NCBI GenBank assembly: GCA_017616955.1
Contig: JAFZXD010000163.1
Coordinates: forward strand, 1-14,633
Direction of reading: 5' to 3'
DNA from: Eubacterium sp.
GTDB lineage: Bacteria > Bacillota > Clostridia > Lachnospirales > Lachnospiraceae
DNA: 14,633 nucleotides
The notes under the pieces were generated by a model. That model did no database searches and was not told the origin of the DNA. It saw only the letters and a program-made list of their open reading frames with translations. Below are positions 1-14,086 of this stretch, one piece after another; position 1 is the stretch's first letter; every line of letters starts with the position of its first letter. The translations under genes and the position numbers were made by a program.

Positions 1-1152
1 GATCTCGCCGTTTCTCGTAGCTCGTTCTGCCATTACTTCAAAGCGATCACTTCCTATGTTAAGCTCTTCAAGTGAAACTGCGATTCCGAGTTCTTTGAAG
101 AAACTCTTGAGTTTATCGGATAATATCAGAGCTCTCTCTTTCTCTGAATAATCATATGAATCAACTCCGAATACTCTGGAAGCAAGGAGAGCAAGTCTCC
201 AAGGCTTTATCTCTGCTATATACTTTGTCCATGCAACGAATACAACTGCCATTCCTTCGCCGTGTGTTATGTTATATTCAGCTGATAATTCGTGTTCTAT
301 TCTGTGTGAACCCCAGTCTGCCGATCGGCCGGCATCCAGGAAGTTATTATGAGCAACACTTGCAAGCCACTGAATCTCGGCTTTGGCATTTATATATTCC
401 GGAAGCGTTGCCAACTCATCGGAAATGAACCCATCCGAACTATACTTATTTATAAGTTCTATCACCCTCTTACCATTTAAAATAAGTGCTCTGATAGCTC
501 CTTCTATCAGATAGTCGGTGGTGTCGGAATTCTTCTCGTCAGAGAAATATCTTTCCAGCAAATGAGCCAGAACGTCAGCAATTCCTACGGCTGTCTGATA
601 TTTAGGAAGTTTAGCTGTGTAAGCCGGATCCATTATCGCGAACTGAGGAATGATTCTGTCGTCTTCGAATCCAAGCTTCCATTCACCATTTGATATAATA
701 GCGGCATTTGATGTTTCTGAACCGCTTGATGCTGTTGTTGCAACAACTCCAATCGGTATAACATTTTCAGGAACGATTCCTTTATCGAAGAAGTCCCATA
801 CATCTCCTTCATAAGGTATACCGATTGATACCGCTTTCGCCGTATCGATGGAGCTACCTCCACCGACGGCAAGTATGAAATCTACCTTCTCTTTCTTTCC
901 TAATTCTACAAGTTCTCTTACAAGTGAAACTGTTGGGTTTGGTACTACATTTCCATTCTCAAAGAACTTAATTCCAAGCTCATCTATCGCTTTTTTTACT
1001 TCCTGATATATTCCCAGATCCTTAATGAAGTCACCGCTGTATATCAGGAGAAGCGACTTAACTTTCCTTCTTTCCAGGAGGGATTTGACTTTATTTATAC
1101 TTCCAGCTCCGAAAATGATCTTCGCAGGATTATAATATTCAAAATTAATCAT
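1..1152 (-). CDS. iron-containing alcohol dehydrogenase, BDH/YqhD type (3' end cut by window)
   Basis: The frame is open from ATG at 1152 to the window edge (384 codons, no stop), so only a few C-terminal residues are probably missing compared with about 387-residue relatives. It is a cytosolic NAD(P)H-dependent group III alcohol dehydrogenase reducing an aldehyde or ketone. The nucleotide-binding GGGSSIDTAKA motif lies at residues 97-107. The metal ligands expected for the YqhD/BDH branch are all visible: D193, H197, H283 and H297, with the same spacing as in YqhD. The start follows metQ by 53 bp with no terminator, so it is probably cotranscribed with metQ from the operator promoter at 2289-2319. 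The ribosome binding site is weak. The substrate cannot be read from sequence. Because the cluster looks sulfur-related, a sulfoacetaldehyde reductase role (some are Fe-ADHs) is possible, but general butanol/aldehyde dehydrogenase activity is equally likely. Confidence 0.9.
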   Translation of the reverse strand, partial: MINFEYYNPAKIIFGAGSINKVKSLLERRKVKSLLLIYSGDFIKDLGIYQEVKKAIDELGIKFFENGNVVPNPTVSLVRELVELGKKEKVDFILAVGGGSSIDTAKAVSIGIPYEGDVWDFFDKGIVPENVIPIGVVATTASSGSETSNAAIISNGEWKLGFEDDRIIPQFAIMDPAYTAKLPKYQTAVGIADVLAHLLERYFSDEKNSDTTDYLIEGAIRALILNGKRVIELINKYSSDGFISDELATLPEYINAKAEIQWLASVAHNNFLDAGRSADWGSHRIEHELSAEYNITHGEGMAVVFVAWTKYIAEIKPWRLALLASRVFGVDSYDYSEKERALILSDKLKSFFKELGIAVSLEELNIGSDRFEVMAERATRNGEI

Positions 1153-1205: not shown

Positions 1206-2192
1206 TTAGTAAAGAGGAACTACAGCTCCGTCATATTTTCCGTTAATGAAATCGCTGATCTGCTTGCTCTGAAGTACTGATACAAGTGCTTTGATAGCAT
1301 CGTCATTCTGCTTAGCAGGTGATGTTGCGATGATATTTCCATATGTCTGAGCTGCAAGTCCGTCGTTAGCTTCTACTGCAAGTGCATCCTTTACACTGAG
1401 TCCACCCTCGATTGCGTAGTTACCGTTGATAACTGCTACATCTACATCAGGGAGTGACTGTGCAAGCTGCTCAGGAGCAAGCTCTGTGAACTGAATGTTC
1501 TTAGGATTCTCTGTGATGTCTGCGATTGTTGCGTTGATTCCTGCATCGTCCTTTAGTGTAAGGATTCCTTCCTGCTGGAGAAGAAGAAGTGCTCTTGCTT
1601 CATTTGTTACATTGTTAGGAACTGCAACTGTTGCTCCGTCCGGAAGGTCTGCAAGTGAAGTTGTCTTTCCTGCGTATACTCCGAATGGCTCGTAGTGAAC
1701 TGCACCGACAGATACGAGATCTGAACCATTTTCCTGATTGAACTGCTCAAGATATGGAACATGCTGGAAGTAGTTAGCATCAAGGCTTCCCTCGATAACT
1801 CCTGTGTTAGGTGTAACTGAATCCTCAAGCTCTACTATCTCAAGTGTGATGCCCTGCTCTGCAAGGATTGGCTGTGCTTCTCTAAGAATTTCAGCATGTG
1901 GGGTGATGTTTGCACCAACCTTAAGTGTTACAGGATCGCCTGTGTAAACAAATGTTCCGTCTGTTGAAGTCGCATTTGACTCTGCAACGATGTCTTTGTC
2001 ATTCACTTCCTTGGAAGCTTCCTCAGCTGTTGCAACTTCCTCGCTGGCTGCTTCTGTTACTGCCTCAGTAATCTCTTCAGATTTAGCTGCCTCTGTGTTC
2101 TCTTCTGTATTTGTTGTAGCTGCATTTCCGCATCCTACTGCACTAATTAATAATGCTGCTGTTAAACCTACTGTAAATATTTTCTTTCTCAT
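1206..2192 (-). CDS. metQ: methionine-binding lipoprotein MetQ (NlpA family)
   Basis: Extracellular substrate-binding lipoprotein of the D/L-methionine ABC importer. Residues 1-21 are a lipoprotein signal with K3/K4, a hydrophobic stretch and lipobox AVGC (Cys21 acylated). Residues about 22-75 form an unusually long acidic Glu/Ala/Thr-rich linker. The NlpA fold follows from about residue 78 (VTLKVGANITPHAEIL) to the end. Family hallmarks are PHAEIL and DANYFQHVPYLEQFN, which place it in MetQ rather than the SsuA/TauA type. At 328 residues it is longer than typical MetQ (about 270-290), and the linker accounts for the difference. The start is supported by GGAGGAAAGAGTT just before ATG 2192. 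It lies downstream of metI but has its own operator promoter (2289-2319) in the 157-bp gap. No terminator separates it from metI, so both read-through and independent transcription are possible. Confidence 0.95.
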   Translation of the reverse strand: MRKKIFTVGLTAALLISAVGCGNAATTNTEENTEAAKSEEITEAVTEAASEEVATAEEASKEVNDKDIVAESNATSTDGTFVYTGDPVTLKVGANITPHAEILREAQPILAEQGITLEIVELEDSVTPNTGVIEGSLDANYFQHVPYLEQFNQENGSDLVSVGAVHYEPFGVYAGKTTSLADLPDGATVAVPNNVTNEARALLLLQQEGILTLKDDAGINATIADITENPKNIQFTELAPEQLAQSLPDVDVAVINGNYAIEGGLSVKDALAVEANDGLAAQTYGNIIATSPAKQNDDAIKALVSVLQSKQISDFINGKYDGAVVPLY

Positions 2193-2288
2193 AACTCTTT
2201 CCTCCGTGATTATGAATTATTTTTTTTAGTGTTTTTTGTTGATGTATGAACTATAAAACATTTATCTGTTAAACACAAATCCTTAAAA

Positions 2289-2319
2289 ACTATATTTAGC
2301 TATAGGCAGTTCTTATAGC
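2289..2319 (-). promoter_or_regulatory. operator-promoter block before metQ
   Basis: A perfect inverted repeat GCTATA-N9-TATAGC occupies 2299-2319. Reading on the minus strand, 4 bp later comes TATAGT (2294-2289), a good -10 hexamer. No convincing TTGACA-like -35 is present, and the -35 position falls inside the palindrome. The geometry is identical to the blocks before metN, the CMD gene and the aminotransferase. The predicted leader is about 90 nt and A-rich. Confidence 0.75.
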
Positions 2320-2349
2320 CATTTTTGTTCCTGATTGTTATTGATATTA

Positions 2350-3003
2350 TTAACTCTTTCTGATTCGTTTTGACAGAAGTCCACCGGATTCCTGAACCAG
2401 CCAAACCATAAGTATAAGTATGGAAACTGTTACCCAAAGCACGTCTTTCTGATATCTGTAATAACCGTACTGAAGTGCAATTGCACCGAGTCCGCCTCCA
2501 CCGATTACTCCTGCCATAGCTGAGTAACCGAGAACAGTTGCGATGTTTATTGCTGCACCGAGAACAAGGGAAGGTCCTGCTTCGGGAAGTATGAAATGAA
2601 ATACTATAAATAGAGGACTTGCCCCCATTGAGTTAGCTGCTTCAATAATTCCCGCAGGGACTTCATTTAAAGAAGACTCAACCATACGTGCTACGATTGG
2701 AATAGCTCCTATAGTAAGCGGAACGATAGTTGCAGTTGTTCCGATAGATGCTCCGACGATGAAACGTGTCACCGGGATAAGAAGCACCAACAGGATCAGG
2801 AACGGCAGCGACCGGCTGATATTTACGATAGCTCCGATAATCGTGTTGATGAATCTATTCTCAAATATTCTTCCTTTTGAAGTTGTATACAGCAGTATGC
2901 CGAGGGGAAGTCCGACAGCATATGCAAAGAGCGATGCAAAAAATGTCATCTGCAGCGTCTCAAATATTCCTTTTATAATTGCGTCTCTTATATATGTATC
3001 CAT
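2350..3003 (-). CDS. metI: methionine ABC transporter permease MetI
   Basis: Integral membrane permease of the MetNIQ importer. About 217 residues with five predicted membrane segments, the usual MetI size. The EAA loop that couples to MetN is seen around EAANSMGASPLFIVFHFILP, followed by PSLVLGAAINIATVLGYSAMAG and GGGLGAIA, which are typical of MetI. The start at 3003 is chosen over an in-frame ATG at 3009 because GGGAGG directly abuts the 3009 ATG but lies 6 nt before the 3003 ATG. It follows metN by 15 bp, so the two form one transcript. Substrate is methionine and derivatives by family and context; related MetI proteins may accept other sulfur amino acids. Confidence 0.95.
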   Translation of the reverse strand: MDTYIRDAIIKGIFETLQMTFFASLFAYAVGLPLGILLYTTSKGRIFENRFINTIIGAIVNISRSLPFLILLVLLIPVTRFIVGASIGTTATIVPLTIGAIPIVARMVESSLNEVPAGIIEAANSMGASPLFIVFHFILPEAGPSLVLGAAINIATVLGYSAMAGVIGGGGLGAIALQYGYYRYQKDVLWVTVSILILMVWLVQESGGLLSKRIRKS

Positions 3004-3018
3004 GATCATCCTCCCTTT

Positions 3019-4041
3019 CTATACTGCAGCTACGCTGAGACCTTCAGATAAGAAGAAGTCGAGAATCTGGTCCTGCTCTTCTTTATCTTTCGGCAGTTCG
3101 AGTACCATCTGACCGTAACCGATTCCTCCTACGCTCTTAATGTTGGCGCTGAGGATATTTACCTTCTTACCGGTCTTTTCAACGAGATTTGCGATAAATG
3201 GTTCATGCGCTGCCTGTCCGTCGAATACTATTCTGAGAAGACGACCTTCAAGACTTACGTCTTCAAATGCATCCTGAATGTCAGATACATTTTGTGGAAG
3301 AACGAGGTTCTTCGCAGCTTCAGACTGTGGATTGGTGAAGACGTCCTTTACCGCACCTACTTCTGCAAGTTCACCTTTATCTATAATAGCTACTCTGTCA
3401 CAGATTTTCTCTACGACTGACATTTCATGTGTAATGATAATGACGGTAAGTCCTCTGGTTCTGTTAATCTCCTGAAGAAGCGTAAGGATTTCCTCAGTGA
3501 TCTTCGGATCAAGCGCGGATGTTGCTTCGTCACATAGAAGTACCTTCGGACTAACTGTAAGTGCTCTTGCTATAGCAACTCTCTGGCGCTGTCCACCCGA
3601 AAGCTGCGCAGGGAAGCTCTTTGCCTTATCTTCAAGACCTACTACTTTAAGCATTTCAAGAGCAGTCTCTCTTCTTTCTTTTCTTCCTACCTTCGCAATC
3701 TTAAGCGGGAGCATGACATTTTCCAGAACAGTCTTCTGATTCAGCAGGTTGAAGCTCTGGAATATCATTGATATTGAACGACGGATTTTTCTGAGCTCCG
3801 CCGGTTTGAGTTTTCCGATATCCTGGCCAAGGAACTTGACCTCACCTTCCGTAACATCTTCAAGTCGGTTGAGTGTTCTGACCAAAGTTGACTTGCCGGC
3901 GCCACTCATACCGATTATTCCGAATATCTCACCTTCATATATTTCAAGATTAATCTTATCCAGAGCTTTGAATTCCTTGCCTTCATTCACGAAGACCTTC
4001 GAAACATCATTCAGCTCATAGACAACTGATTTCTCAGACAT
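3019..4041 (-). CDS. metN: methionine ABC transporter ATP-binding protein MetN
   Basis: Cytosolic ATPase that powers methionine import. Walker A GMSGAGKST lies at residues 44-52, Q-loop in MIFQSFNLL, signature LSGGQRQR, Walker B VLLCDEATSALDP and H-loop THEM. The last roughly 75 residues form the C-terminal NIL/ACT-like domain, which in MetN proteins binds methionine and gives feedback (trans-)inhibition; its end reads GIGYGQMVLELP...DFFLSEGL. About 340 residues, normal for the family. The start at 4041 (MSEKS) is preferred over ATG 4059, because AGAGGAGAA lies between them at correct spacing to 4041 and the 4059 ATG overlaps that ribosome binding site. First gene of metNI, driven by the operator promoter at 4114-4144. 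No S-box or T-box structure fits in the short leader, so control appears to be transcriptional. Confidence 0.96.
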   Translation of the reverse strand: MSEKSVVYELNDVSKVFVNEGKEFKALDKINLEIYEGEIFGIIGMSGAGKSTLVRTLNRLEDVTEGEVKFLGQDIGKLKPAELRKIRRSISMIFQSFNLLNQKTVLENVMLPLKIAKVGRKERRETALEMLKVVGLEDKAKSFPAQLSGGQRQRVAIARALTVSPKVLLCDEATSALDPKITEEILTLLQEINRTRGLTVIIITHEMSVVEKICDRVAIIDKGELAEVGAVKDVFTNPQSEAAKNLVLPQNVSDIQDAFEDVSLEGRLLRIVFDGQAAHEPFIANLVEKTGKKVNILSANIKSVGGIGYGQMVLELPKDKEEQDQILDFFLSEGLSVAAV

Positions 4042-4075
4042 AACTAATTCTCCTCTCATTTTTGTTCGCTAATAA

Positions 4076-4093
4076 CTATACCCGCTGTTATAG
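4076..4093 (-). promoter_or_regulatory. possible second half-palindrome in metN leader
   Basis: CTATA-N8-TATAG lies just downstream of the metN promoter, between the predicted transcription start and the ribosome binding site. It resembles the TATA half-sites of the main operator but has an 8-bp gap and outer-oriented half-sites, so it may be an auxiliary site or chance in AT-rich DNA. Confidence 0.25.
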
Positions 4094-4113
4094 CCCGAAA
4101 CAATTACCGATAA

Positions 4114-4144
4114 ATTATACCGTGTTATAGTCTCCCCCTATAAC
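4114..4144 (-). promoter_or_regulatory. operator-promoter block before metN
   Basis: A perfect inverted repeat GTTATAG-N7-CTATAAC (same as GTTATA-N9-TATAAC) spans 4124-4144. After 4 bp on the minus strand comes a consensus -10, TATAAT (4119-4114). This is the clearest -10 among the four blocks. The palindrome covers the -35 position, where only a poor hexamer (TATAGG) occurs. A 33-nt hairpin ends 8 nt upstream of the operator. Confidence 0.8.
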
Positions 4145-4148
4145 TGAG

Positions 4149-4200
4149 AAAAGTGGACACTTGAAATCTGATTTAAAGTGTCCACTTTTTATGTAAACCA
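4149..4200. repeat. palindromic repeat copy A
   Basis: The core 4153-4185 has 16-nt arms (GTGGACACTTGAAATC and its near-complement, one mismatch) around a single central base, extended by AAAA/TTTT. The 48-nt unit 4153-4200, read on the minus strand, matches copy B read on the plus strand at 46 of 48 positions, including a 15-nt flank outside the palindrome. It sits downstream of the CMD terminator and just before the metN operator. On the minus strand it is followed by TTTTCTC, so it may act as a second terminator. Confidence 0.85.
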
Positions 4201-4203
4201 ATA

Positions 4204-4246
4204 AAGGAAAAAGGGTGCCCAACGTGGCTATGCCACATCGGACACC
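4204..4246 (-). terminator. intrinsic terminator of the CMD gene
   Basis: Read on the minus strand, arms GGTGTCCGATGTGG and CCACGTTGGGCACC (4246-4214) pair over all 14 positions in RNA using three G-U wobbles, with a 5-nt loop, then CTTTTTCC. On the plus strand the same positions would be A-C mismatches, so the structure is built for minus-strand RNA. It ends the single-gene CMD transcript. Confidence 0.85.
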
Positions 4247-4320
4247 AAGGAGTGTTGATTTTTAAAGATTTTATAAAAAAAGAGGTTTAATAATTATTGA
4301 AAATATTGAAGTTATTGAAA

Positions 4321-4875
4321 CTATTTAATTCCTTCTCTCCATGTTGCAGGTTTGAATTCATTGATGATCGGAAGAAGTCTCTGATCAACATCGATTTTAA
4401 GAATTGAGTTGAAGTTATTTGTAGCGATCATCTGACCGGCAAATCCAACGATTGCTACTATCTCGCTGTCATTCCAGAACTTCTTAAGTCTGTCGATGAG
4501 CTCATCTGAAACTGCTGTAGGATTCTTAACAGCCTGCTGTCCGAGCTCTACAAGTGCCTGTTCTTTCTCATCATACTGAAGATTTGCAGGATCAAGTCCA
4601 AGTCCCTTAACATCACTTATAAAGAAAAGTGAGCAGAGCTGGCATGAATTTGTTGTAGATATTGAATGAGCATAAAGTACTGCCGCCTTCTCACCAACTA
4701 CTTCAACGAGTCTGTTCCAAGATGTGTACCATCCCATATATGCATCATAAGTTGCTGCATCATTAAGAAGTCCTGCCTTCATATTTGTTACTGCATTTCT
4801 TCCTGCGAGCTCCTCATATCTTTCTCTCTCTGCGCCACTTGTTTCTTCGAGCTTTAATAATTTAACTCTTGCCAT
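4321..4875 (-). CDS. carboxymuconolactone decarboxylase / AhpD-like CxxC protein
   Basis: 184-residue cytosolic alpha-helical protein of the CMD/alkylhydroperoxidase AhpD-like superfamily. The redox pair C78-x-x-C81 lies in NSCQLCSLFF, at the start of the family's core helix; no signal peptide or membrane segment is seen. In canonical AhpD proteins the CxxC is preceded by a Glu and followed by a His that forms the proton relay. Here the His after the cysteines is absent (Phe/Ile instead), and the only nearby His is H70, upstream. The reaction may therefore differ from peroxidase; a thiol-disulfide or dehydrogenation-type role is possible. GGAGGAAA lies 10 nt or less before ATG 4875. The gene is a monocistronic unit with its own operator promoter (5015-5045) and terminator, which places it in the same regulon as the transporters. 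Substrate unknown. Confidence 0.8.
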   Translation of the reverse strand: MARVKLLKLEETSGAERERYEELAGRNAVTNMKAGLLNDAATYDAYMGWYTSWNRLVEVVGEKAAVLYAHSISTTNSCQLCSLFFISDVKGLGLDPANLQYDEKEQALVELGQQAVKNPTAVSDELIDRLKKFWNDSEIVAIVGFAGQMIATNNFNSILKIDVDQRLLPIINEFKPATWREGIK

Positions 4876-5014
4876 TTTATGTTTCCTCCATAATTATATT
4901 ATATTTGAAATCCTTCGCATCCCTTTTATACTCTGGGTTTTCGGGGTGTTTTACTGATCTCTTTGTTATGTGTAAATCTTATACCAAAGCAACCGTTCTG
5001 TAAAATACCTAGAA

Positions 5015-5045
5015 ACGATAATCTGTTATAAACAGCCCCTATAGC
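5015..5045 (-). promoter_or_regulatory. operator-promoter block before the CMD gene
   Basis: The inverted repeat (plus strand GTTATA-N9-TATAGC, 5025-5045) is followed on the minus strand by 4 bp and TATCGT (5020-5015), the weakest -10 of the set. Outer bases differ by a G/A change but the TATA cores and 21-bp length match the other blocks. The predicted leader of roughly 130 nt is longer than those of the other units and has no recognised riboswitch. Confidence 0.65.
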
Positions 5046-5056
5046 GAAGGATTGAC

Positions 5057-5107
5057 TGGTTTACATAAAAAGTGGACAGTTGAAATCAGATTTCAAGTGT
5101 CCACCTT
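5057..5107. repeat. palindromic repeat copy B, also operon terminator
   Basis: The core 5072-5104 has 16-nt arms with one mismatch around a central A. The 48-nt unit 5057-5104 is the inverted counterpart of copy A (46 of 48 identical), so A and B flank the CMD gene head to head. On the minus strand the hairpin begins 14 nt after the stop of the lipoprotein gene and is followed by TTTTTATG, a canonical intrinsic terminator for the long operon. Confidence 0.85.
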
Positions 5108-5118
5108 TCATAGTTATA

Positions 5119-6177
5119 TTATTTAAGTTCAAGATATAGATTATCTGTAAATTGCTGTGGATCCCCCTGAAGGTATCCGATGGTTTTTAGTTCCTGTGCA
5201 AAGTAGAGAACGTCACCTTTTACGTCATGTGTTCCGGCAGTTTCCGGTGTTTCGTATTCATATGCTGTGATGAGTGCTTTAGCAAGTTCTTTATCTTCCA
5301 CTTCTGAATAGTTTCCTTTTACGATGATATCAAGTGCCTCGTCAGGATTTTCATTTATCCATTTCTGAGCCTTAAGTACTGCATTGTATAATGCCTTGAT
5401 CTCATCCGGTTTTTCATTTATTACTTTTGTTGATGCATAGTAGAAGCAGCAATATTTTCCTGCAAATGGTTCATCCTTGCTTATATCCACAAGTACTTTT
5501 GCTTTTCCGGATGCAACTGCAATATCTCCAAGAGGATCCCATATAGCTGCCACATCGATATCTCCGTTGTAGAGTGCTTCAAGTTCGAGGTTTCCGTCTG
5601 CATATGGTAGAAATGTCACCTCACCCTTTTCCTGTTTAGCAGAAACCCCATTCTCCTCAAGCCAAACACTGGCAACCTGGAATGTAGTTCCTCCTACTTC
5701 ATCGACACCAACCTTAAGTCCTTTCAAAGTCTCCGGATCAGAGGTTACAGCTTGAAGAGTCGAGTCTGACTTTACAACCAGCTTGATACAGCCGTAATGC
5801 ATTCCCCCGATAACCTTCATGTCTATACCCTGTTCCGCAGATGAAAAGAACTGGAAGTCTCCATTTACAAATGGAACATTTCCGTTGTTAAGACCTATCT
5901 TTCTTGTTTCAAAATCAGCAGCAGTAAGGTTCGCATCGATACCTTCTTCTGCAAAGAAACCTTTTTCATAGGCAATGTATATAGGGGCGCCGCAGAGTGA
6001 TCCGTCGAGCGCCGGAATATCTATCTTTCCAAACTTATAATCTGAACTTTCAGCTGTCGAAGATGAACTCGAACTACCGGTATCATCCCCTGCATTTCCT
6101 GGTGAACCGCCACATCCTGCTAGAGATACAGCCATAACAGCTGTTACCAAGACTATTGATACTAATTTCTTTTTCAT
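5119..6177 (-). CDS. SsuA/TauA/NrtA-like substrate-binding lipoprotein
   Basis: Extracellular lipoprotein of the NMT1/SsuA-like binding-protein group, which captures sulfonates, nitrate, pyrimidine precursors and similar small molecules for ABC import. The signal peptide ends at lipobox LAGC (Cys22), followed by a Gly/Ser-rich linker to about residue 45. The fold then shows GAPIYIAYEKGFFAEEGID, the hallmark helix of the family, and the hinge and second lobe with LKGLKVGVDEVGGTTF and AAIWDPLGDIA. At 352 residues it is of normal size. ATG 6177 overlaps the TGA of the preceding ATPase gene (ATGA) with an AGGAG site inside that gene, so the two are translationally coupled. It is the last gene of the operon. 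It presumably feeds the SsuBC-like pair encoded upstream, although it is coupled to the FtsX/LolD pair. Ligand unknown; an organosulfur compound is inferred from neighbours. Confidence 0.85.
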   Translation of the reverse strand: MKKKLVSIVLVTAVMAVSLAGCGGSPGNAGDDTGSSSSSSTAESSDYKFGKIDIPALDGSLCGAPIYIAYEKGFFAEEGIDANLTAADFETRKIGLNNGNVPFVNGDFQFFSSAEQGIDMKVIGGMHYGCIKLVVKSDSTLQAVTSDPETLKGLKVGVDEVGGTTFQVASVWLEENGVSAKQEKGEVTFLPYADGNLELEALYNGDIDVAAIWDPLGDIAVASGKAKVLVDISKDEPFAGKYCCFYYASTKVINEKPDEIKALYNAVLKAQKWINENPDEALDIIVKGNYSEVEDKELAKALITAYEYETPETAGTHDVKGDVLYFAQELKTIGYLQGDPQQFTDNLYLELK

Positions 6178-6851
6178 AATATTACTCCTAACTTACCCTT
6201 TTCTAAAATATATTTATTATCAGCCTTTGCAGCCAATTCTTCATCGTGGGTTACGACTATAACAGTGATTCCCGACTCGGTCATCTCCCTGAATACATCT
6301 GCGATAATCTCTCTGTTACGTTTATCCAGATCGTTTGTCGGTTCATCTGCAAGTACGACTTGTGGTTTTGAATAAAGAGTTCTCGCTACTACAAGTCTTC
6401 TTAACTCTCCTCCGGAAATGTCATTCGGGTACTCATCTTTCAAATCTGTCAGCCCAAGTCGTTCCAATATATATGAAAGATTCGCATCACCGTTCTCGTG
6501 ATCTCTATTATCAAAAGCATCTACAAGGCGGATATTTTCTGAAATACTTAGTTCCGGAATAACTTCCTGAAGCTGCGGCATATATACGATGTCGTGTCTT
6601 CTGATCTTTGCTTTCTCATCTATGCTCAGCGAACTGATTTCATTTTCATCGTTATATATCACGCTTCCTTCATCGACATCGATAAGCCCGGCAAGTACTC
6701 CTAGAAAAGTTGACTTACCGCTACCGGATTCACCTCGGATTACGATATATGTCCCTTTTTCTATACTTAAATCAATCCCATTTAAAACATTTAAAGTTTT
6801 ATCCCGTCGATTGTAACTTTTTCTTATATTCTTTACTTCCAGTACACTCAT
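6174..6851 (-). CDS. LolD/MacB-type ABC ATPase
   Basis: 225-residue cytosolic ATPase that pairs with FtsX/MacB-type permeases. Walker A GESGSGKST is near residues 39-47; Q-loop in YMPQLQEVIPELSI; signature ISGGELRR (Leu to Ile variant at the first position); Walker B VVLADEPTNDLD; H-loop VTHDEE. Size and the DEPTNDLD motif are typical of the LolD/MacB/FtsE group rather than importers. AGGAGG precedes ATG 6851, and the FtsX stop codon directly abuts that ATG. Its own stop overlaps the start of the lipoprotein gene by 4 bp. Such complexes usually do mechanotransmission or export and do not import solutes, so its place between an importer's ATPase and its binding protein is unusual. Confidence 0.9.
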   Translation of the reverse strand: MSVLEVKNIRKSYNRRDKTLNVLNGIDLSIEKGTYIVIRGESGSGKSTFLGVLAGLIDVDEGSVIYNDENEISSLSIDEKAKIRRHDIVYMPQLQEVIPELSISENIRLVDAFDNRDHENGDANLSYILERLGLTDLKDEYPNDISGGELRRLVVARTLYSKPQVVLADEPTNDLDKRNREIIADVFREMTESGITVIVVTHDEELAAKADNKYILEKGKLGVIL

Positions 6852-8036
6852 TTATCCGATCCTCCTGACTGCAAACCTGCCACTGACAGGGCCTGCAAGA
6901 ATTCCGATCACTCCCGCTATAATAAAAAGAAATACAAGAGTTTCCGGATTTGGAATCAAAAACGGAATACTAACGGAAGAACTGATAAATGTCTTAAATG
7001 GAAATAGAACAATCGAAACCAGACTCACACCCAAAACACTTCCGATAAAACTTATGATCAATGTTTCTTTTAAGATAAGCTTTCTGATCTGTTTATCCGT
7101 AGCACCGACCATCTTCATTACGTCATATCTGTCTTTTCTCTCATTTATTGAAAGCGCAAATGTAACATCAAGTATGATGACAGTAAGAATCAACAGCATA
7201 CTAAGGAGCAGATACAATAAAACTTTAAATCCTCCCAGCCCGGATTCTATCGAGTTCGTCATACTCCTTGTCTCTATAACCTGAAGTCCGTCCAACTTAG
7301 ATCTAATATCATGTTTTACCTGAGATGGTTCATATCCGTATTTTACACGAATCATTATTGAAGAGATTCCTTTATCTGGATTGATACCATCCGGAAATGT
7401 AAAGCCTTTATTCTTAGCTGCATCAAACAAAACTTGAATCGTTTTCATATTTGCAAAAACTGCCTGATCTAGACCTGTTCCTGTTTCTTCGAGCTGAGCC
7501 GAAACTTTAAAATGTTTTTCAAAGAACCTGATTTCACCGTTTTCCGGTATATCGATGTCACTTCCGACAATAATCTGATTATCATCAAGAAGACCTGCAT
7601 GAGCGCCATACATTTCCCTAATCCATGGATTAACGGTAAAGTCACTCGCTTCATCTATACCAATAAACTGAACAGGGATATCGCAGCATCCCTGATTAGA
7701 TGAAGTCAGATAAAACTGTGCGGATATTCTGTCTATCCCTTCAATATCAGCCTTGCTTAGTTCATCAGCAACCTCTCGTTCAAGATAGAAATAACTGGGT
7801 TCTCCTTTTATCAGAATTCCCTCTGCGCTACCTTCATAGTCAAGAGGTACTATCATCAGGTCAGCGCCCATTCTTTCACCAAGACATCTGATGCCATTTT
7901 TCAGACTAAATAGAATCAGTCCGCCGGCCAGAAGACTAAAGGTTAGAACTGCTACTATGGCAACTGTTCCGGCGAACCTTGCTTTCTTTCTTTTAATAAA
8001 TGAAAATATAATTTTTATATCATTCAGATTATTCAT
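6852..8036 (-). CDS. FtsX/MacB-family ABC permease
   Basis: 394-residue membrane protein with the FtsX/MacB layout: an N-terminal membrane helix at about residues 20-42, a large extracellular MacB-like periplasmic core domain (about 45-270), then three membrane helices in the last 120 residues. The intracellular loop SINERKDRYDVMKMVGATDKQIRKLI is the classical FtsX signature where the LolD-type ATPase docks. The extracellular domain carries an adjacent Cys pair in NQGCCDIPVQF. It begins 9 bp after the DUF4418-like gene and ends immediately before the ATPase gene, forming one complex with it. A role in membrane handling, export or transfer of a ligand to or from the lipoprotein or DUF4418-like partner can be imagined, but no substrate can be read. 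Confidence 0.9.
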   Translation of the reverse strand: MNNLNDIKIIFSFIKRKKARFAGTVAIVAVLTFSLLAGGLILFSLKNGIRCLGERMGADLMIVPLDYEGSAEGILIKGEPSYFYLEREVADELSKADIEGIDRISAQFYLTSSNQGCCDIPVQFIGIDEASDFTVNPWIREMYGAHAGLLDDNQIIVGSDIDIPENGEIRFFEKHFKVSAQLEETGTGLDQAVFANMKTIQVLFDAAKNKGFTFPDGINPDKGISSIMIRVKYGYEPSQVKHDIRSKLDGLQVIETRSMTNSIESGLGGFKVLLYLLLSMLLILTVIILDVTFALSINERKDRYDVMKMVGATDKQIRKLILKETLIISFIGSVLGVSLVSIVLFPFKTFISSSVSIPFLIPNPETLVFLFIIAGVIGILAGPVSGRFAVRRIG

Positions 8037-8045
8037 TTTAATTTC

Positions 8046-8534
8046 TTAAGCCTCTGAAGCAGCCTTTTCCTGAAGTGAATCTTCTTCACTTCCGTTAGAA
8101 ACCAATTTAAGACCAAGTGATAAAATACCTGTCAGTCCAACAATTACACCGATAAGTATAAGCGCAGGTCTTGTAACCATATGGCAATGCATATGAGCAC
8201 TTTGACACACACCAATGATAAAAGTAGGAATACCTACAGCTATAACTCCAAGAATAATTCTTACAAGATCAAGTATTGATTCAAATCCTGAATTCTTCGC
8301 TTCATATTTTGTTTCTGTAATAAGTGATATGATACTGATCAGAATAAGAACGATACCTGTCACAAGTGAAGCTGTCGGAATACCATGACATGGTGGTCCA
8401 CCTGCCATAGAACCCATATCGCCCATCTCTGAACCCATTTTCATATTTGCTCCGCATACATGTAAAAATGTATAAGGACCGATAGCAAGTACAAGTCCTG
8501 CTGCTAATCCAAGTATGTTTTTTAACTTATTCAT
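8046..8534 (-). CDS. DUF4418-like Cys/His/Met-rich four-helix membrane protein
   Basis: 162 residues with about four predicted membrane helices (roughly 7-27, 55-73, 88-112, 123-145) and a charged Glu/Lys-rich tail. Two segments outside the helices hold many metal-type ligands: HVCGANMKMG...MGDMGSMAGGPPCHG after helix 1, and GVCQSAHMHCHMVTRPA after helix 3. This pattern fits the DUF4418 family as I recall it, but the family call is from memory. Two Cys-His regions on the same face could bind a metal ion or heme, or form disulfides. It lies between the SsuB-like ATPase and the FtsX-type permease genes, and DUF4418/FtsX/LolD probably work as a unit. The ribosome binding site is weak (AAAGGGA), with a 57-bp gap upstream. 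Function unknown. Confidence 0.75.
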   Translation of the reverse strand: MNKLKNILGLAAGLVLAIGPYTFLHVCGANMKMGSEMGDMGSMAGGPPCHGIPTASLVTGIVLILISIISLITETKYEAKNSGFESILDLVRIILGVIAVGIPTFIIGVCQSAHMHCHMVTRPALILIGVIVGLTGILSLGLKLVSNGSEEDSLQEKAASEA

Positions 8535-8570
8535 TTTCTTAATTCCCTTTGTATATTTTATTATTTTGTA

Positions 8571-8591
8571 GCTATAAAGCTACTTTATATC
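8571..8591 (-). promoter_or_regulatory. degenerate operator-like palindrome before the DUF4418 gene
   Basis: GCTATA-N9-TATATC (plus strand) matches the operator consensus except for one outer base. The 4-bp-spaced hexamer on the minus strand is AAATAA, not a good -10. A small 5-bp hairpin GTAGC/GCTAC (8568-8583) overlaps it. Possibly a weak internal site that lets the DUF4418-FtsX-LolD-lipoprotein part be tuned separately, or chance. Confidence 0.3.
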
Positions 8592-9380
8592 TTAGATAGT
8601 ATATTCCGGCTGAGGAAGTTCCGTTGCAAGATGGAACTTCTCCAACAGTTTCTTTCTAAGTTCTATATAATCCGGCCCATTTCTGTGACGAGGATGATGC
8701 ATATTTACATCGATTATCTCGCTTATCCTTCCGGGTCTTGGCGTCATTATGACGATTCTGTCAGACAGATAGAGTGCCTCATCAACATCGTGTGTAACCA
8801 ATATCATGGTTGCCCCGGTTTCTTTCCTGATCTCCAAGATTTTATCCTGTAGATCTGCCCTTGTGAAGTTATCAAGCGCTCCCATTGGTTCATCAAGAAG
8901 CAGCACCTCCGGGTCATTTATAAGAGATCTTGCGATAGCAACTCTCTGTGCCATACCACCACTTATCTGATGAGGATAAACATTTTCAAATCCTTTTAGT
9001 CCGACCATCTCGATGAACTCAGGAATCCTATCTTTATTCTCTTTATATACATGTCTGGCTTTAAGACCGGCTGCTATATTCTGCTCAACGGTAAGCCATT
9101 CGAACAGACCGCCCTGCTGGAATACATATCCTCTCTTTGGATCTGCTCCCTTTATCTCTTCACCACTAAGTTTCAGTGTTCCGGACTGTGGCTTATCAAG
9201 TCCCGCAATGAGTCTCAGAAGTGTTGTCTTACCACATCCCGATGCCCCTATGATGGATATAAACTCACCTTTCTTCACATCCAGATTCACATTCGACAGA
9301 GCTATGGTTTCTGTCTCTGCATCTTTATATATTCTGTTTACATCCTTTATCTCAAGGATGATGTCATTGTCTTTACTCAT
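8592..9380 (-). CDS. SsuB/TauB/NrtD-type ABC importer ATPase
   Basis: About 262-residue cytosolic ATPase of the nitrate/sulfonate/taurine importer subfamily. Walker A GASGCGKTT at residues 45-53; Q-loop VFQQGGLFEW; signature ISGGMAQR; Walker B VLLLDEPMGALD; H-loop VTHDVDEAL; then IVIMTPRPGRI, characteristic of the SsuB/TauB/NrtD group. ATG 9380 is chosen because AAAGGAG lies 8 nt upstream and it overlaps the permease TGA (ATGA, 9377-9380). A TTG start at 9401 would put the ribosome binding site inside the gene. It forms the classical importer pair with the permease gene before it. The nucleotide-binding motifs are intact. Confidence 0.92.
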   Translation of the reverse strand: MSKDNDIILEIKDVNRIYKDAETETIALSNVNLDVKKGEFISIIGASGCGKTTLLRLIAGLDKPQSGTLKLSGEEIKGADPKRGYVFQQGGLFEWLTVEQNIAAGLKARHVYKENKDRIPEFIEMVGLKGFENVYPHQISGGMAQRVAIARSLINDPEVLLLDEPMGALDNFTRADLQDKILEIRKETGATMILVTHDVDEALYLSDRIVIMTPRPGRISEIIDVNMHHPRHRNGPDYIELRKKLLEKFHLATELPQPEYTI

Positions 9381-10369
9381 CTCACCACTCCTTTCTGCCA
9401 ACGAAGCATATGCTTCTGCAATAACTCAATAAGATTGGTTATGATACTGAAAAGAATGGCCATAACTATGATAGCTGCAAATACTTTGTAGTATGCACTC
9501 CACACTTTAGATGCATTTATATAATAACCGAGTCCTCCGGGCTGCCCCATCATCTCCGCCATGACAAGTGTGGTAAATGCATATCCATTTGCTGTTGTAA
9601 TTCCTGTAAATATCTGAGGAAGCGCATGAGGAAGTGCAACATGATATACCAGATACCATTCATTTCCGCCAAGCGTTCTTCCTGCTTCAAACTGTGTCTT
9701 AGGTGTACTTTCAACTCCGGCTGCTGTTAGTGTAGCCACCAGAATCCATACGGCAACTGCTATAAGAAATACAGCTGCAGAAAAAGGTGTAGGAAGAAGT
9801 GTCAGGGCAAATGGCATCCAAGCTACCGCCGGAATAACTCCCAAAACCTTAAGTACCGGACTTACCCAATAGCTGACTTTAGGAAACCATCCTACGAGAA
9901 CTCCTGTTATAATTCCGGCAAATGTACCGCTGATGAATCCAACAAGATAAAGTCTAAGTGAATACAAAGTGTTCTGAAGAACAAAGTCTCCCTCTGCTAC
10001 AAAAGCTTCCATAATTCCGGCAGGTCCCGGAAAGAATGGCTGAGTCAGCACCTGATATTTTGTACCAAGTATGTCCCACAGAAGAAGCAGAAGTCCCATA
10101 ACAAATCTGAACGGCGCCGCCTTTTGATACTTTTTCCTGCGTTCCTTCGAATGTGCATCCACTATTCCTATCACAATATAGAGGACAATAATAGCTATGA
10201 GAACAACTCTGTAAGCCTGATTACTGTTTATTTCCGTACCAAATAATTGATGTGGTTCAAATGTTACCCCTTCTGCCTTCTGGGGTATAAGAATATTTAA
10301 AATTGCTGCAATAGCAAAACCTATAGTTGTTATTATTATTGATAATATATGTTTAGTCTTTTTGTTCAT
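9377..10369 (-). CDS. SsuC/TauC-type ABC importer permease
   Basis: 330-residue membrane protein of the BPD_transp_1 (SsuC/TauC/NrtB) group. The importer core starts near residue 130 (NTLYSLRLYLVGFISGTFAG), has the EAA loop EAGRTLGGNEWYLVYHVALP and ends with a conserved LPHALPQIFTG plus two helices. The N-terminal 125 residues carry two or three additional hydrophobic segments and a basic stretch (KERRKKYQKAA), so it is longer than ordinary SsuC (about 260). It follows metY by 41 bp with an AAGAGG-type ribosome binding site and overlaps the ATPase gene by 4 bp. It imports the ligand delivered by the operon's lipoprotein; the substrate is likely a sulfonate or other small organic acid, which sequence does not settle. 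Confidence 0.9.
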   Translation of the reverse strand: MNKKTKHILSIIITTIGFAIAAILNILIPQKAEGVTFEPHQLFGTEINSNQAYRVVLIAIIVLYIVIGIVDAHSKERRKKYQKAAPFRFVMGLLLLLWDILGTKYQVLTQPFFPGPAGIMEAFVAEGDFVLQNTLYSLRLYLVGFISGTFAGIITGVLVGWFPKVSYWVSPVLKVLGVIPAVAWMPFALTLLPTPFSAAVFLIAVAVWILVATLTAAGVESTPKTQFEAGRTLGGNEWYLVYHVALPHALPQIFTGITTANGYAFTTLVMAEMMGQPGGLGYYINASKVWSAYYKVFAAIIVMAILFSIITNLIELLQKHMLRWQKGVVR

Positions 10370-10410
10370 TTATCTACGCCTCTTCTTTTGTCTAAAGTCA
10401 GAGACAACTC

Positions 10411-11709
10411 TTATAATCCTGCAGCGGCAAATGCCTGCTCAAGATCTTCGATCAGATCCTGTGCATCCTCAAGTCCAAGAGACAGTCTGATAGTTTCATC
10501 ATGTATATCTGCCGCGTTCTGAAGTTCAGGATTTAGTTCTGTATGTGTTGTTGAAGATGGATTAATAATAAGAGACTTGGCATCTCCTATATTTGCCTGG
10601 AATCCCCAAACTTTAACTGCCTCAAGGAACTTAGTCCTCTCTTCTATGCCACCCTTAAGACCGAATGAAAGTATTCCACCCGCTCCTTTAGGGAAGTATT
10701 TATCAGCAAGAGCTTTATATTTATTTCCGGTAGCAGACGGATGCTTAACCCAGAGAACCTCTTTCCCAAGTCTTGACTCAAGGAACTTAACAATCTTCTC
10801 TGCATTATCAACCTGCTTCCGGACTCTTTCCGAAAGAGTCTCAAGTCCGAGCAGTACCAGGTATCCGCTGAACGGAGCAAGTGCCGCACCAAGATAGTTC
10901 AGATGTATACTTCTGATTCTTCCGGTAAATGGACCATCAGGGAAAACATCAAGATATCTTCTCGGTTCACCCTGCTGACTTCTGAGGAAGTAAGGCGTAT
11001 CTCTAAACTGTGGGAACTTGTCACTGTCGAAGTTGAAACTATTGTTCTCAACTATTATTCCAGCTATGACATTTCCATGACCCGAAAGTCCCTTGGTTGC
11101 AGAATAAATAACTACATCTGCACCATATTCAAATGGATTCAGAAGGTAAGGTGTTGCAAGCGTGTTATCAACGATAAGCGGAATGCCTGCCTTATGTGCA
11201 ACTTCAGCGATAGCTTCGATATCAAGGATAGTCGCATTCGGATTTGTAAGACTCTCTATATAGATGACTTTTGTATCCGGCTTTATGGCCTTTTCAAAAC
11301 TTGAAGCATCATCAGGATCATCAACCAAGTCAAACTCAACATTACTCTCACGAAAAACCTGATTAAGACTATCAAGTGCTCCACCGTAAAGACGTGGAGT
11401 CGTAAGTATTCTGCCGCTCCCTGCTGTGATATTCAGAAGTGAATATGTAACAGCTGCCATACCGGAAGCCAGTGAAACCGCAGCTGTTGCTTCATGAAGT
11501 TCTACAAGACGCGCTTCAAGAACATCCGTTGTCGGGTTAGAAAGTCTTGTATACAGAGGATCCCAGCTGTCAAAAGCAAAGAGATCATCCGATCTGGATA
11601 CTGTTCCGAGTTCAAATGCTGTTGTAGCATATATCGGAACCGAAACAGCGTAATTATGATCAGCAGGATTATAACCTGCGTGTAATTTCTTAGTATCAAA
11701 ACGTGCCAT
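10411..11709 (-). CDS. metY: O-acetylhomoserine (thiol)-lyase, MetY-type
   Basis: 432-residue PLP enzyme of the Cys/Met-metabolism family. It joins O-acetylhomoserine with sulfide to give homocysteine, or with methanethiol to give methionine. The Schiff-base lysine is K206 in SATKGLSGHG; D181 (VDNTLATPYL) holds the PLP ring; YTRLSNPT (residues 53-60) and LYGG (108-111) supply phosphate and ring contacts. The length of about 430 and the GHGNVIAG motif favour the MetY sulfhydrylase branch over cystathionine gamma-synthase/lyase (about 380-400). GAGAGGAG lies upstream of ATG 11709. It follows the aminotransferase gene by 50 bp and shares its operon and promoter. Beside a NifB/NifH pair and sulfur transporters it probably assimilates reduced sulfur or methanethiol into methionine. 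An O-acetylserine or phospho-ester acceptor cannot be excluded. Confidence 0.88.
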   Translation of the reverse strand: MARFDTKKLHAGYNPADHNYAVSVPIYATTAFELGTVSRSDDLFAFDSWDPLYTRLSNPTTDVLEARLVELHEATAAVSLASGMAAVTYSLLNITAGSGRILTTPRLYGGALDSLNQVFRESNVEFDLVDDPDDASSFEKAIKPDTKVIYIESLTNPNATILDIEAIAEVAHKAGIPLIVDNTLATPYLLNPFEYGADVVIYSATKGLSGHGNVIAGIIVENNSFNFDSDKFPQFRDTPYFLRSQQGEPRRYLDVFPDGPFTGRIRSIHLNYLGAALAPFSGYLVLLGLETLSERVRKQVDNAEKIVKFLESRLGKEVLWVKHPSATGNKYKALADKYFPKGAGGILSFGLKGGIEERTKFLEAVKVWGFQANIGDAKSLIINPSSTTHTELNPELQNAADIHDETIRLSLGLEDAQDLIEDLEQAFAAAGL

Positions 11710-11759
11710 ATGATATCTCCTCTCAAAACTGTGCCATTATTTCATGCATGACTGACTTA

Positions 11760-13088
11760 TTATCCGATGATCTCATCAACGTATTTGATTGCGTCATCCA
11801 GAATCTCAAATGCTTCATCCAATTCTTCTTTTGTGATAATAAGAGGAGGAGCTACCAGGATATGTGAACCACCGCCGAATGTAAGTATTCCCTTTTCTCT
11901 CAGGTATGCAAGAAATGTATTAAGGAAAGGTTTTCCGTCCTTTGTTGTTTCTATAATCTCTCTTGTTTCTTTGCTGTATGAGAACTCTATTGCTCCGAAA
12001 AGTCCGATCGATCTTACATCGCCAACAGATACATGCTTTTCTTTAATCTCAGCAAGCTTCTCTTTGAGATATGGTTCAAGTTCCAACACATGCTCTCTTA
12101 CTCCAAGTCTCTTATATTCATTTATGCATCCGATAGCAGCTGCTATTCCAACCGGGTGAGCATTATATGTAAGTCCTGCTGTAAATGGATTCTCATCGTA
12201 GTAATCAGATATTTCCTTACTTATGATCACACCGCCAAGTGGTGCATATGAACTATTAACACCTTTTGCAAATGTTATGATATCCGGTTCAATCTCTTCT
12301 CTCTCTATTGCGAACCACTCACCACTTCTGAGGAAACCTGCCATAACTTCATCTGCTACAAAAAGTATTCCGTACTTCTTTGTTATTTCCCTTACTCCCT
12401 TAAGATATCCCTTTGGATACTGGTATACTCCGTTACTTCCCGGGACTGATTCGATAAAGAGTGCTGCGATCTTTTCAGGTCCTTCCTGAATGATCTGATA
12501 TTCAAGTCTGTTAAGGAAATGGTTTGTAGCTTCTTCCTCTGATGCAAACTTAATATCGTATCCGTAAAGATGAGGTGCTGCAAACTTAACGAAGCCCGGA
12601 ATAGTCGGTGAAAGCGAAGCTCTGTCAGGCTCTCCTGTAAGACTTGATGCTCCGTATGTTCCGCCATGATAAGACTCATACTTTGAAAAAATCTTATCTC
12701 TTCCTGTATATGCCTTTGCAAATCTTATAGCAAACTCATTTGCATCTGAACCACCAAGTGTGAAGAGAACCTTTCCGGCATTCTTTGGTGCAAGCTCTTC
12801 GATGATGATCTCTCCAAGCTCACCTCTTCTGTCAAATGCATGCTTAGGTGCGACATATGATAGTGTCTCAACCTGATCCTGAACTGCTTTTATAACTGCT
12901 TTATTATTGTGACCTATATTTACATTTACCAGCTGTGAACCGAGATCAATGTATGACTTACCTTCATCATCCCAAACTCTGACTCCGTCAGCCTTCTCAA
13001 TATAAAATGGCTTATACTCCTTCTGTGTATATCCTGTAAATGAAAACAGCGTATATTTTTTTGCCTTTTCCAATGCTTCCTTACTCAT
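11760..13088 (-). CDS. class III PLP aminotransferase (taurine/omega-amine type candidate)
   Basis: 442-residue cytosolic aminotransferase with fold type I. PLP lysine K275 lies in FAKGVNSSYAPLGG; the ring-binding aspartate D246 is in FVADEVMAGF; the phosphate cup is GGSDANE (112-118) and YHGGTYGAS (140-148); TYNAHPVG closes the second-subunit site. The start at 13088 follows GGAGGAAAAGAAAG; an upstream TTG at 13121 would place the ribosome binding site inside the gene. First gene of the long operon, with its promoter at 13168-13198. Class III enzymes transfer an omega-amino group from taurine, beta-alanine, GABA or diamines, or act on ornithine derivatives. Because the downstream genes encode a sulfonate-type importer, taurine is a reasonable candidate substrate, giving sulfoacetaldehyde. 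The sequence alone does not prove this. Confidence 0.85.
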   Translation of the reverse strand: MSKEALEKAKKYTLFSFTGYTQKEYKPFYIEKADGVRVWDDEGKSYIDLGSQLVNVNIGHNNKAVIKAVQDQVETLSYVAPKHAFDRRGELGEIIIEELAPKNAGKVLFTLGGSDANEFAIRFAKAYTGRDKIFSKYESYHGGTYGASSLTGEPDRASLSPTIPGFVKFAAPHLYGYDIKFASEEEATNHFLNRLEYQIIQEGPEKIAALFIESVPGSNGVYQYPKGYLKGVREITKKYGILFVADEVMAGFLRSGEWFAIEREEIEPDIITFAKGVNSSYAPLGGVIISKEISDYYDENPFTAGLTYNAHPVGIAAAIGCINEYKRLGVREHVLELEPYLKEKLAEIKEKHVSVGDVRSIGLFGAIEFSYSKETREIIETTKDGKPFLNTFLAYLREKGILTFGGGSHILVAPPLIITKEELDEAFEILDDAIKYVDEIIG

Positions 13089-13167
13089 CTTTCTTTTCCT
13101 CCGTTTTATGTCTTTTTTCAATGAGCATATGTTACCATCTACACTTGTTTTTGTCTTATCCCAAGAT

Positions 13168-13198
13168 ACTATGTCCGGTTATAAGACCTCGTTATAAC
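13168..13198 (-). promoter_or_regulatory. operator-promoter block before the long sulfur operon
   Basis: A perfect inverted repeat GTTATA-N9-TATAAC spans 13178-13198. After 4 bp on the minus strand comes CATAGT (13173-13168), a fair -10. The 33-nt hairpin copy C ends only 4 nt upstream of the operator. The predicted leader is about 70 nt. This block would drive the aminotransferase, metY, both ABC modules and the binding lipoprotein. Confidence 0.75.
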
Positions 13199-13202
13199 AA
13201 AT

Positions 13203-13235
13203 GTGGACAGTTGAAATCAGATTTCAACTGTCCAC
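13203..13235. repeat. palindromic repeat copy C
   Basis: A perfect palindrome with 16-nt arms GTGGACAGTTGAAATC around a central A. On the minus strand it starts 11 nt after the nifH-like stop, but the sequence after it is ATTTGTTAT, a poor T-tract. On the plus strand it is followed by TTTTTGAAAAA. It lacks the 15-nt flank shared by copies A and B. It may weakly terminate the nifB-nifH transcript or merely be a repeat. Confidence 0.8.
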
Positions 13236-13246
13236 TTTTTGAAAAA

Positions 13247-14086
<840 letters not shown>

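Follow-up and report, generated by a model that had tools for sequence, protein, structure and literature searches.

The window analyzed here is the whole contig C20 (14,633 bp) of G000, a draft genome of Eubacterium sp. (1.7 Mb, 58.6% complete). It contains four copies of a 21-bp box, GYTATA-N9-TATARC. It is quite probable that a LysR-type activator of genes for sulfur amino acids uses this box as its primary site, and the regulator is most likely LTTR-B, a LysR family protein whose gene is located on a different contig of G000. This assignment draws on the sites, their register with a second site, a predicted downstream promoter, the gene context and the conservation of the sites together with LTTR-B, all of them read from the sequence.

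The box, its paired site and the predicted promoter

All four copies named in an earlier sequence-only reading of the window are exact matches (Table 1), and four matches were reached in none of 200 shuffles of the window, which gave 0.01 matches on average. The downstream genes are metQ, metN, a CMD-like gene and a class III aminotransferase–metY pair. The four boxes all have the form TATA-N9-TATA and thus contain the T-N11-A palindrome of a LysR-type primary site, a symmetry that had been noticed before. It is also correct that, reading along the minus strand, four bases separate each box from the hexamer TATAGT, TATAAT, TATCGT or CATAGT that comes after it. No regulator family was found among the 14 window ORFs (open reading frames) scanned against families, in agreement with the earlier statement that the regulator lies outside the window. 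Control of the window genes by a riboswitch was rejected, since no Rfam family reached its gathering threshold.

In the draft genome the pattern is matched exactly eight times and the reversed pattern never, so that the pattern is non-random. Most of the sites precede methionine or cysteine genes. Note that the genes at the four sites outside the window were named by reading the sequence, and only Rrf2 by a family match. A ninth, imperfect site (profile E 5.5e-5) was found on contig C302 before a nitrogenase-like operon. A slightly stricter version of the pattern gave 43 sites in 36 further genomes of the genus, versus 17 for the reversed control; the pattern alone therefore also matches by chance, and several sites were located inside ORFs. 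The bare pattern was rejected as too loose for genus-wide prediction and a profile, R1, was built.

In total, 53 exact sites were considered, and 38 were kept according to the function of the downstream gene. The 15 that were dropped lay inside ORFs or between convergent genes, or their nearest gene was not a sulfur gene; three of them (two in L113, one in L114) were later matched by R1, one being 330 bp before metY. The exact sites in genus relatives precede metQ, metN, metY, cysK, the CMD gene, the aminotransferase gene, DUF4418 and nitrogenase-like genes, and others are located between metE and a LysR gene. R1 is a sequence-only model of 31 of the 38 sites, from which four metE sites, L009:3246, L085:166 and L087:1027 were excluded.

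The R1 scan of all 37 genomes gave 112 matches in 23 genomes, including all 31 training sites. The downstream gene was examined for 48 matches outside the training set, and 35 of them lay within 250 bp of a gene similar to one of 31 labelled genes, or 34 of 47 when one self-match is removed (the C302 site of G000, which matched its own label). The labelled genes were taken from the window, other sites and relatives, so many of the tested genes are orthologues of known targets. The remaining 13 matches comprised two at contig edges, two without a downstream gene (G004:C1:1208704 and G013:C128) and nine not near a labelled gene; of these nine, two precede glutamate–cysteine ligase-like genes, one precedes a NifX-like gene and one a gene of the HAD family; a further two fall within an ORF and three are too far away. 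Matches with E of 1.1e-5 or lower comprised the 31 training sites, 28 examined matches (22 near a labelled gene, one at a contig edge and five not) and two left out, namely G008:C15:48380, with metY 330 bp downstream, and G001:C13:32463, before metN. The suggestion in the sequence-only reading of a single regulon joining metNI, metQ, the CMD gene and the aminotransferase–metY operon is supported, and the box marks a sulfur amino acid regulon.

The 38 oriented sites, several of which are orthologous and not independent, were aligned with the box as an anchor. Conserved bases were found after the box, namely ATA at positions 6–8 (36, 33 and 29 of the 38 sites) and ATT at positions 19–21 (36, 32 and 28). 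When shifts of 12–59 were scored for a second copy of ATA-N9-TAT (mean 2.14, sd 0.68), the peak of 4.84 of 6 was found at 23 bp; the next-best shift, 13, simply uses one half-site again. The TTGACA-like match was strongest at +21 (3.26 of 6), with next offsets of at most 2.47 and a maximum of 2.37 among 300 base shuffles. TATAAT-like peaks were located at +5 (4.00), +44 (3.84) and +18 (3.42), with a highest shuffle value of 2.92, and those at +5 and +18 correspond to the half-sites of the second copy. In the +44 hexamer, T, A and final T were found in 32, 33 and 30 of the 38 sites, respectively; these are the strong positions of a -10 element.

These signals allow us to predict a promoter with a -35 element at 21–26 and a -10 element at 44–49 bases after the box, with 17-bp spacing, which places the box near -66. 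The predicted start is at about +56, the box centre at about -66 and the centre of the second site at about -43. LysR-type regulators typically have a primary site at about -65 and a second, weaker site at about -35, and the predicted centres agree with this rule. Such an arrangement would correspond to the anatomy of a LysR-type activator. In locus L232, titled Lachnoclostridium phytofermentans strain KNHs2131, the box at 6900-6920 is followed by TTAACA at 6940-6945 and TATAAT at 6964-6969; a map of transcription starts at single-base resolution has been published for Clostridium phytofermentans (PMC5171806).

The sequence-only reading had taken the hexamer 4 bp past the box as the -10 element, so that the box would cover -37 to -17 and act as a repressor operator or replace the -35 contact. 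We regard this as quite unlikely. The +5 hexamer does average 4.00 of 6 against TATAAT and reaches 6 of 6 at the box at 4124; however, its sixth base is T in just 18 of the 38 sites and it continues as ATA-N9-TAT, so that the 23-bp repeat accounts for it. In addition, the single strong TTGACA-like offset, +21, pairs with +44 and not with +5, and a free search for the best -35/-10 pair in each sequence selected +44 in 22 of 38 cases and +5 in three. Thus, the +5 hexamer was rejected as the most likely -10 element and is probably half of the second site, and neither the -37 to -17 placement nor the repressor or substitute role based on it is supported.

Some observations count against the +21/+44 promoter. 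The +5 hexamer is on average slightly closer to TATAAT than the +44 hexamer, so that a promoter there keeps some likelihood, and an unanchored search of the metN promoter sequence preferred +5. A fixed-consensus scan of the window listed only the CMD promoter of the four predicted and gave fewer promoter-like sites than shuffles (19 vs. 29.4). The four metE sites and C100:3246 are outside the register. Weak -35 elements would suit dependence on an activator but weaken the direct evidence for the promoters.

The favoured model is as follows. A tetramer would bind the strong palindrome GYTATARG-N5-CYTATARC at about -66 and the degenerate copy 23 bp downstream at about -43, beside the weak -35 element. 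At low levels of sulfur amino acids, a small ligand would alter the hold on the second site, and RNA polymerase would then be recruited to the -35 and -10 elements at 21 and 44 bases past the box. Binding, the ligand, the tetrameric state and a role in activation instead of repression are inferred; the protein would most likely be LTTR-B.

The candidate regulator and its rivals

Among the LysR genes of the genus, two related groups stand out, named here LTTR-A and LTTR-B, besides more distant ones. LTTR-B is a protein of 303 aa with HTH_1 and LysR_substrate domains, and in G000 its gene is located at the end of contig C252. In 14 of the 18 genomes viewed, it adjoins cysK, CGL, metQ, CMD or metY genes, as in G007, where the gene row is cysK-CGL-cysK-LTTR-B-CMD-aminotransferase-metY. 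In relatives, LTTR-B stands beside both the box and methionine or cysteine genes, as is usual for a LysR gene and its target.

Co-occurrence was assessed over the 37 genomes, with strong sites defined by an R1 E of 1e-6 or better. LTTR-B and strong sites were both present in 19 genomes, both absent in 14 and discordant in 2 + 2, that is, in agreement in 33 of 37 (Fisher p 2e-6, uncorrected for relatedness). These calls follow a check of twelve more hits, in which an LTTR-B fragment in G013 (86%) was counted and a hit in G023 was found to be only 52% identical to LTTR-B.

Sites were also sought in named loci of Lachnospiraceae and further clostridia that contain LTTR-B, namely the best 80 of the matches listed. 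A position weight matrix gave 52 matches in 44 of these loci, most often before metN, metQ or metY, and none in the reversed sequences, and 24 of the 47 matches of at least 18 bits with a downstream ORF lay within 120 bp of the LTTR-B stop codon. A covariance-model scan of the same loci gave 74 matches at E 0.1 or better. Note that, judging from name and length, L220 is the contig that contains the training locus G001:C13, so that one of the 80 appears to be a training contig; L227 was likewise judged identical to G031:C166. No labelled LysR ORF was obtained for L233.

The assignment to LTTR-B also meets contrary evidence. No methionine or cysteine gene was seen beside LTTR-B in G000, G008, G012 and G028 among the 18 genomes viewed. 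Strong sites without an LTTR-B hit were found in G020 and G025 (72 and 79% complete), and LTTR-B without a strong site in G011 and G031. The genomes with neither strong sites nor LTTR-B could belong to a single clade, and 36 of the best 80 named loci had no site within the stretch fetched.

The box could instead be read by the metE-linked paralogue LTTR-A, or by both paralogues, which we judge unlikely. LTTR-A adjoins metE, exact boxes were found between the two genes in four genomes, and ATA-N9-TAT pairs 23 bp apart are present in 8 of 10 LTTR-A–metE intergenic regions (L107, L103, L098, L110, L162, L164, L165, L167, L168 and L169). However, seven genomes with strong sites have LTTR-B without an LTTR-A hit and none shows the reverse, G003 and G026 have LTTR-A without LTTR-B and no strong site, and the association with strong sites is weaker for LTTR-A (p 0.02 vs. 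2e-6, relatedness ignored). Moreover, all ten regions contain a palindrome of the CATAGAT-N3-ATCTATG type, in some of them with changed bases, and in nine its centre is 31 bp before a TTTA-type -35 element. The box centre in LTTR-B sites is likewise 31 bp from the -35 element, which makes this palindrome the likelier site of LTTR-A; it is probably the site of the metE-linked protein. Owing to the co-occurrence and this separate palindrome, LTTR-A as the sole regulator was considered less likely.

An Rrf2/CymR-type protein is a most improbable reader of the box. A box is located between metY and a divergent Rrf2 gene in G000 and two relatives (the Rrf2 family was confirmed for the G000 copy); however, the promoters of L010 and L119 carry a different motif, CCTATTGAC-N4-ATAGG, over the -35 element, and an Rrf2-like neighbour was among the genes listed for 9 of 79 named LTTR-B loci. 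Similar CCTATTGAC-N4-ATAGG motifs were observed in L010 (~2170), L119 (~4025), L087 (~980) and L194 (~9925), overlapping the likely -35 element of metY promoters beside Rrf2 genes and of a glutamate–cysteine ligase-like gene. This motif is a possible candidate Rrf2/CymR site that would give double control.

Family models for the exact identity of the LysR proteins gave only matches far below the cut-offs. For one protein of the LTTR-A group and one of the LTTR-B group, no CmbR model was present among the 25 top-ranking NCBIfam families (of 52 and 50, respectively). The box can be compared with the sites of known LysR regulons. CmbR (FhuR) of Streptococcus pneumoniae, a reported repressor, has the 21-bp operator GYGATAAAAAWWAYTTATMAC, and its target genes include cysteine and methionine genes (PMC5131005). 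The box and this operator share the 21-bp frame GY-K-ATA-N9-TAT-M-R-C and differ in the third base, which is T in the box and G in the CmbR operator (GYGATA-N9-TATMAC). The likeness concerns the site; the targets of the box differ in that they include the CMD, aminotransferase–metY and nitrogenase-like operons. That pneumococcal CmbR is a repressor, whereas LTTR-B is proposed as an activator, is a further point against the assignment.

CmhR (MtaR) of S. pneumoniae is a LysR family activator of metQ, metEF, metB and other genes (PMC5359408). Many sites share TATAG-N7-CTATA with its 17-bp site TATAGTTTSAAACTATA; however, the box does not match that site, as the inner bases differ (GTTTSAAAC in the CmhR site, RG-N5-CY in the box) and the outer GY/RC of the box are outside the published site. 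A comparative study predicts joint action of MtaR, CmbR and HomR on metEF in four streptococci. The background of a Clostridium perfringens study attributes control to S-boxes and T-boxes in firmicutes, to CymR in Bacillus and Staphylococcus, and to CmbR, CysR and MetR/MtaR in lactococci and streptococci. Thus, the regulon is not as uncharacterised as the sequence-only reading had it, since its site closely resembles published CmbR and CmhR/MtaR sites, but no report for Lachnospiraceae was found in the open-licence papers searched. The kind of regulon is known; within the literature searched, what appears new is its presence in this clade, the register of the paired sites and a number of the targets.

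Predicted nitrogenase-like targets

Downstream of the site on C302 are genes for D-like (in two pieces), K-like and NifX-like proteins and the beginning of a NifB-like gene; the putative LysR regulator thus also seems to control nitrogenase-like sulfur-salvage enzymes. The K protein and the larger D piece match the methylthio-alkane reductase MarBHDK (PDB 9FMG; PMC12552129) and 9D9U far better than nitrogenase, with 378 vs. 63 bits for K and 304 vs. 76 bits for part of D (9FMG vs. nitrogenase). The D and K proteins are therefore closer to MarDK than to NifDK, and Mar is their closest solved relative. The gene order differs from that of Mar, being D-K-NifX-NifB, with NifH added if the contigs are neighbours, and the NifH-like protein of the window scores 476 bits against nitrogenase NifH and 285 bits against the 9FMG iron protein, which makes the former its nearer relative. 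Unlike in Mar, the D gene is split by an in-frame TAG (L195 870–872); related D genes are uninterrupted in L117, L205 and L212. This codon may be real, a sequencing error or a case of recoding.

The C302 NifB piece covers profile positions 9–94 and the window piece positions 123–295. The pieces are complementary, so C302 and the window contig are probably neighbours, and the window NifH gene probably closes the C302 operon. By description, the combination of a nitrogenase-like enzyme, a radical SAM partner and an SsuCAB-type transporter resembles the isethionate reductase IsrBHDK of Rhodobacter capsulatus, a nitrogenase-like enzyme of sulfonate assimilation (PMC11423573).

Relatives of the C302 K protein were found in 10 of the 37 genomes including G000, with 32–45% identity in the others. 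Two further nitrogenase-like D-K types in relatives follow sites, strongly in L088, L117 and L205 and weakly (E ~0.001) in L210 and L212. Sulfur operons that include nitrogenase-like genes are also seen in further records from Lachnospiraceae, namely L293 and L285, where LTTR-B, CGL, MalY-like, cysK, nifB-like, nifX-like and nifH-like genes form one row.

Features of the window and biological meaning

The features are collected in Table 1.

Table 1. Features of the window and related sites. The four window boxes are R1 training sites; second sites are taken from the 38-site alignment and promoters from the +21/+44 register.
Feature	Position	Strand	Remarks
Box 1, putative primary LysR site	2299..2319	-	upstream of metQ; predicted centre ~-66; R1 E 6.8e-12
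Second, degenerate ATA-N9-TAT site of box 1	2278..2294	-	columns +5 to +21; contains the -10-like hexamer of the sequence-only reading
Predicted metQ promoter TTGTGT-N17-TATAGT	2250..2278	-	-35 2273-2278, -10 2250-2255; not listed by independent consensus scan; -35 weak
metQ-like lipoprotein, NlpA family	1206..2192	-	PF03180
Iron-type alcohol dehydrogenase-like ORF	1..1152	-	after metQ; cut by contig end; relative L102:7922-9130 matches Fe-ADH
Box 2	4124..4144	-	upstream of metNI; R1 E 8.5e-8
Second site of box 2	4103..4119	-	
Predicted metN promoter TTGTTT-N17-TATAGT	4075..4103	-	not listed by consensus scan
metN, ABC ATPase with NIL domain	3019-4059	-	PF00005, PF09383
metI, permease	2350-3009	-	PF00528
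Box 3	5025..5045	-	upstream of CMD-like gene; R1 E 2.2e-11
Second site of box 3	5004..5020	-	
Predicted CMD promoter TTTACA-N17-TAAGAT	4976..5004	-	independent consensus scan agrees
CMD-like protein, 184 aa	4321..4875	-	conserved target in relatives; name from the sequence-only reading; no Pfam match, weak NCBIfam match to YciW-related model
Box 4	13178..13198	-	upstream of aminotransferase–metY–ABC operon; R1 E 2.0e-11
Second site of box 4	13157..13173	-	
Predicted promoter AAGACA-N17-TAACAT	13129..13157	-	not listed by consensus scan
Likely aminotransferase–metY–ABC operon	5119..13121	-	from gene order and spacing
Class III aminotransferase	11760-13121	-	family scan
metY	10411-11709	-	family scan
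Sulfonate-type permease and ABC ATPase	9377-10369, 8592-9401	-	family scan
DUF4418	8046-8534	-	family scan
FtsX-type permease	6852-8036	-	family scan
ABC ATPase	6174-6851	-	family scan
SsuA-like binding protein	5119-6177	-	family scan
NifH-like protein	13247-14080	-	family scan
NifB-like protein, C-terminal part	14115-14633	-	family scan; cut by contig end
Box site outside the window	C100		exact; between cysK and mccB-like gene
Box site outside the window	C103		exact; between metY and Rrf2-family gene
Box site outside the window	C157		exact; before cysK
Box site outside the window	C196		exact; before peptide-type ABC operon
40-bp palindrome copies	4149-4189, 5068-5108, 13199-13239; C8, C36, C56, C60, C189 and others		

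A dispersed palindrome of roughly 40 bp with the core AAGTGGACANTTGAAATCNGATTT and its complement was found at 28 places in G000 (52 rows with at most two mismatches; reversed control 0). Three of the four boxes in the window have a copy 1–23 bp upstream, and another copy lies close to the box on C196. The window copy at 13203-13235 was scored as a terminator on either strand. A shared block forming one mobile or duplicated repeat was rejected: the distance between palindrome and box varies and most of the 28 copies have no exact box, so the palindrome is a separate element.

The chances are about even that a LysR sulfur-starvation regulon extends across Lachnospiraceae and switches on several nitrogenase-like operons (one of them a methylthio-alkane reductase relative) together with metY and sulfonate-type transporters. 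If so, the box would control the release of methanethiol or sulfite from organic sulfur by anaerobes of the gut and rumen, with small hydrocarbons as possible by-products, and the regulon would predict when nitrogenase-like sulfur-salvage genes are expressed. The resemblance of the box to the streptococcal CmbR operator suggests that LysR control of sulfur amino acid genes is wider than streptococci and lactococci. For such genes in Lachnospiraceae, a large family with members in the gut and rumen, the analysis offers a regulator, a site and a promoter register that can be tested, and the CMD-like protein, DUF4418 and the class III aminotransferase can be considered new candidates in sulfur metabolism.

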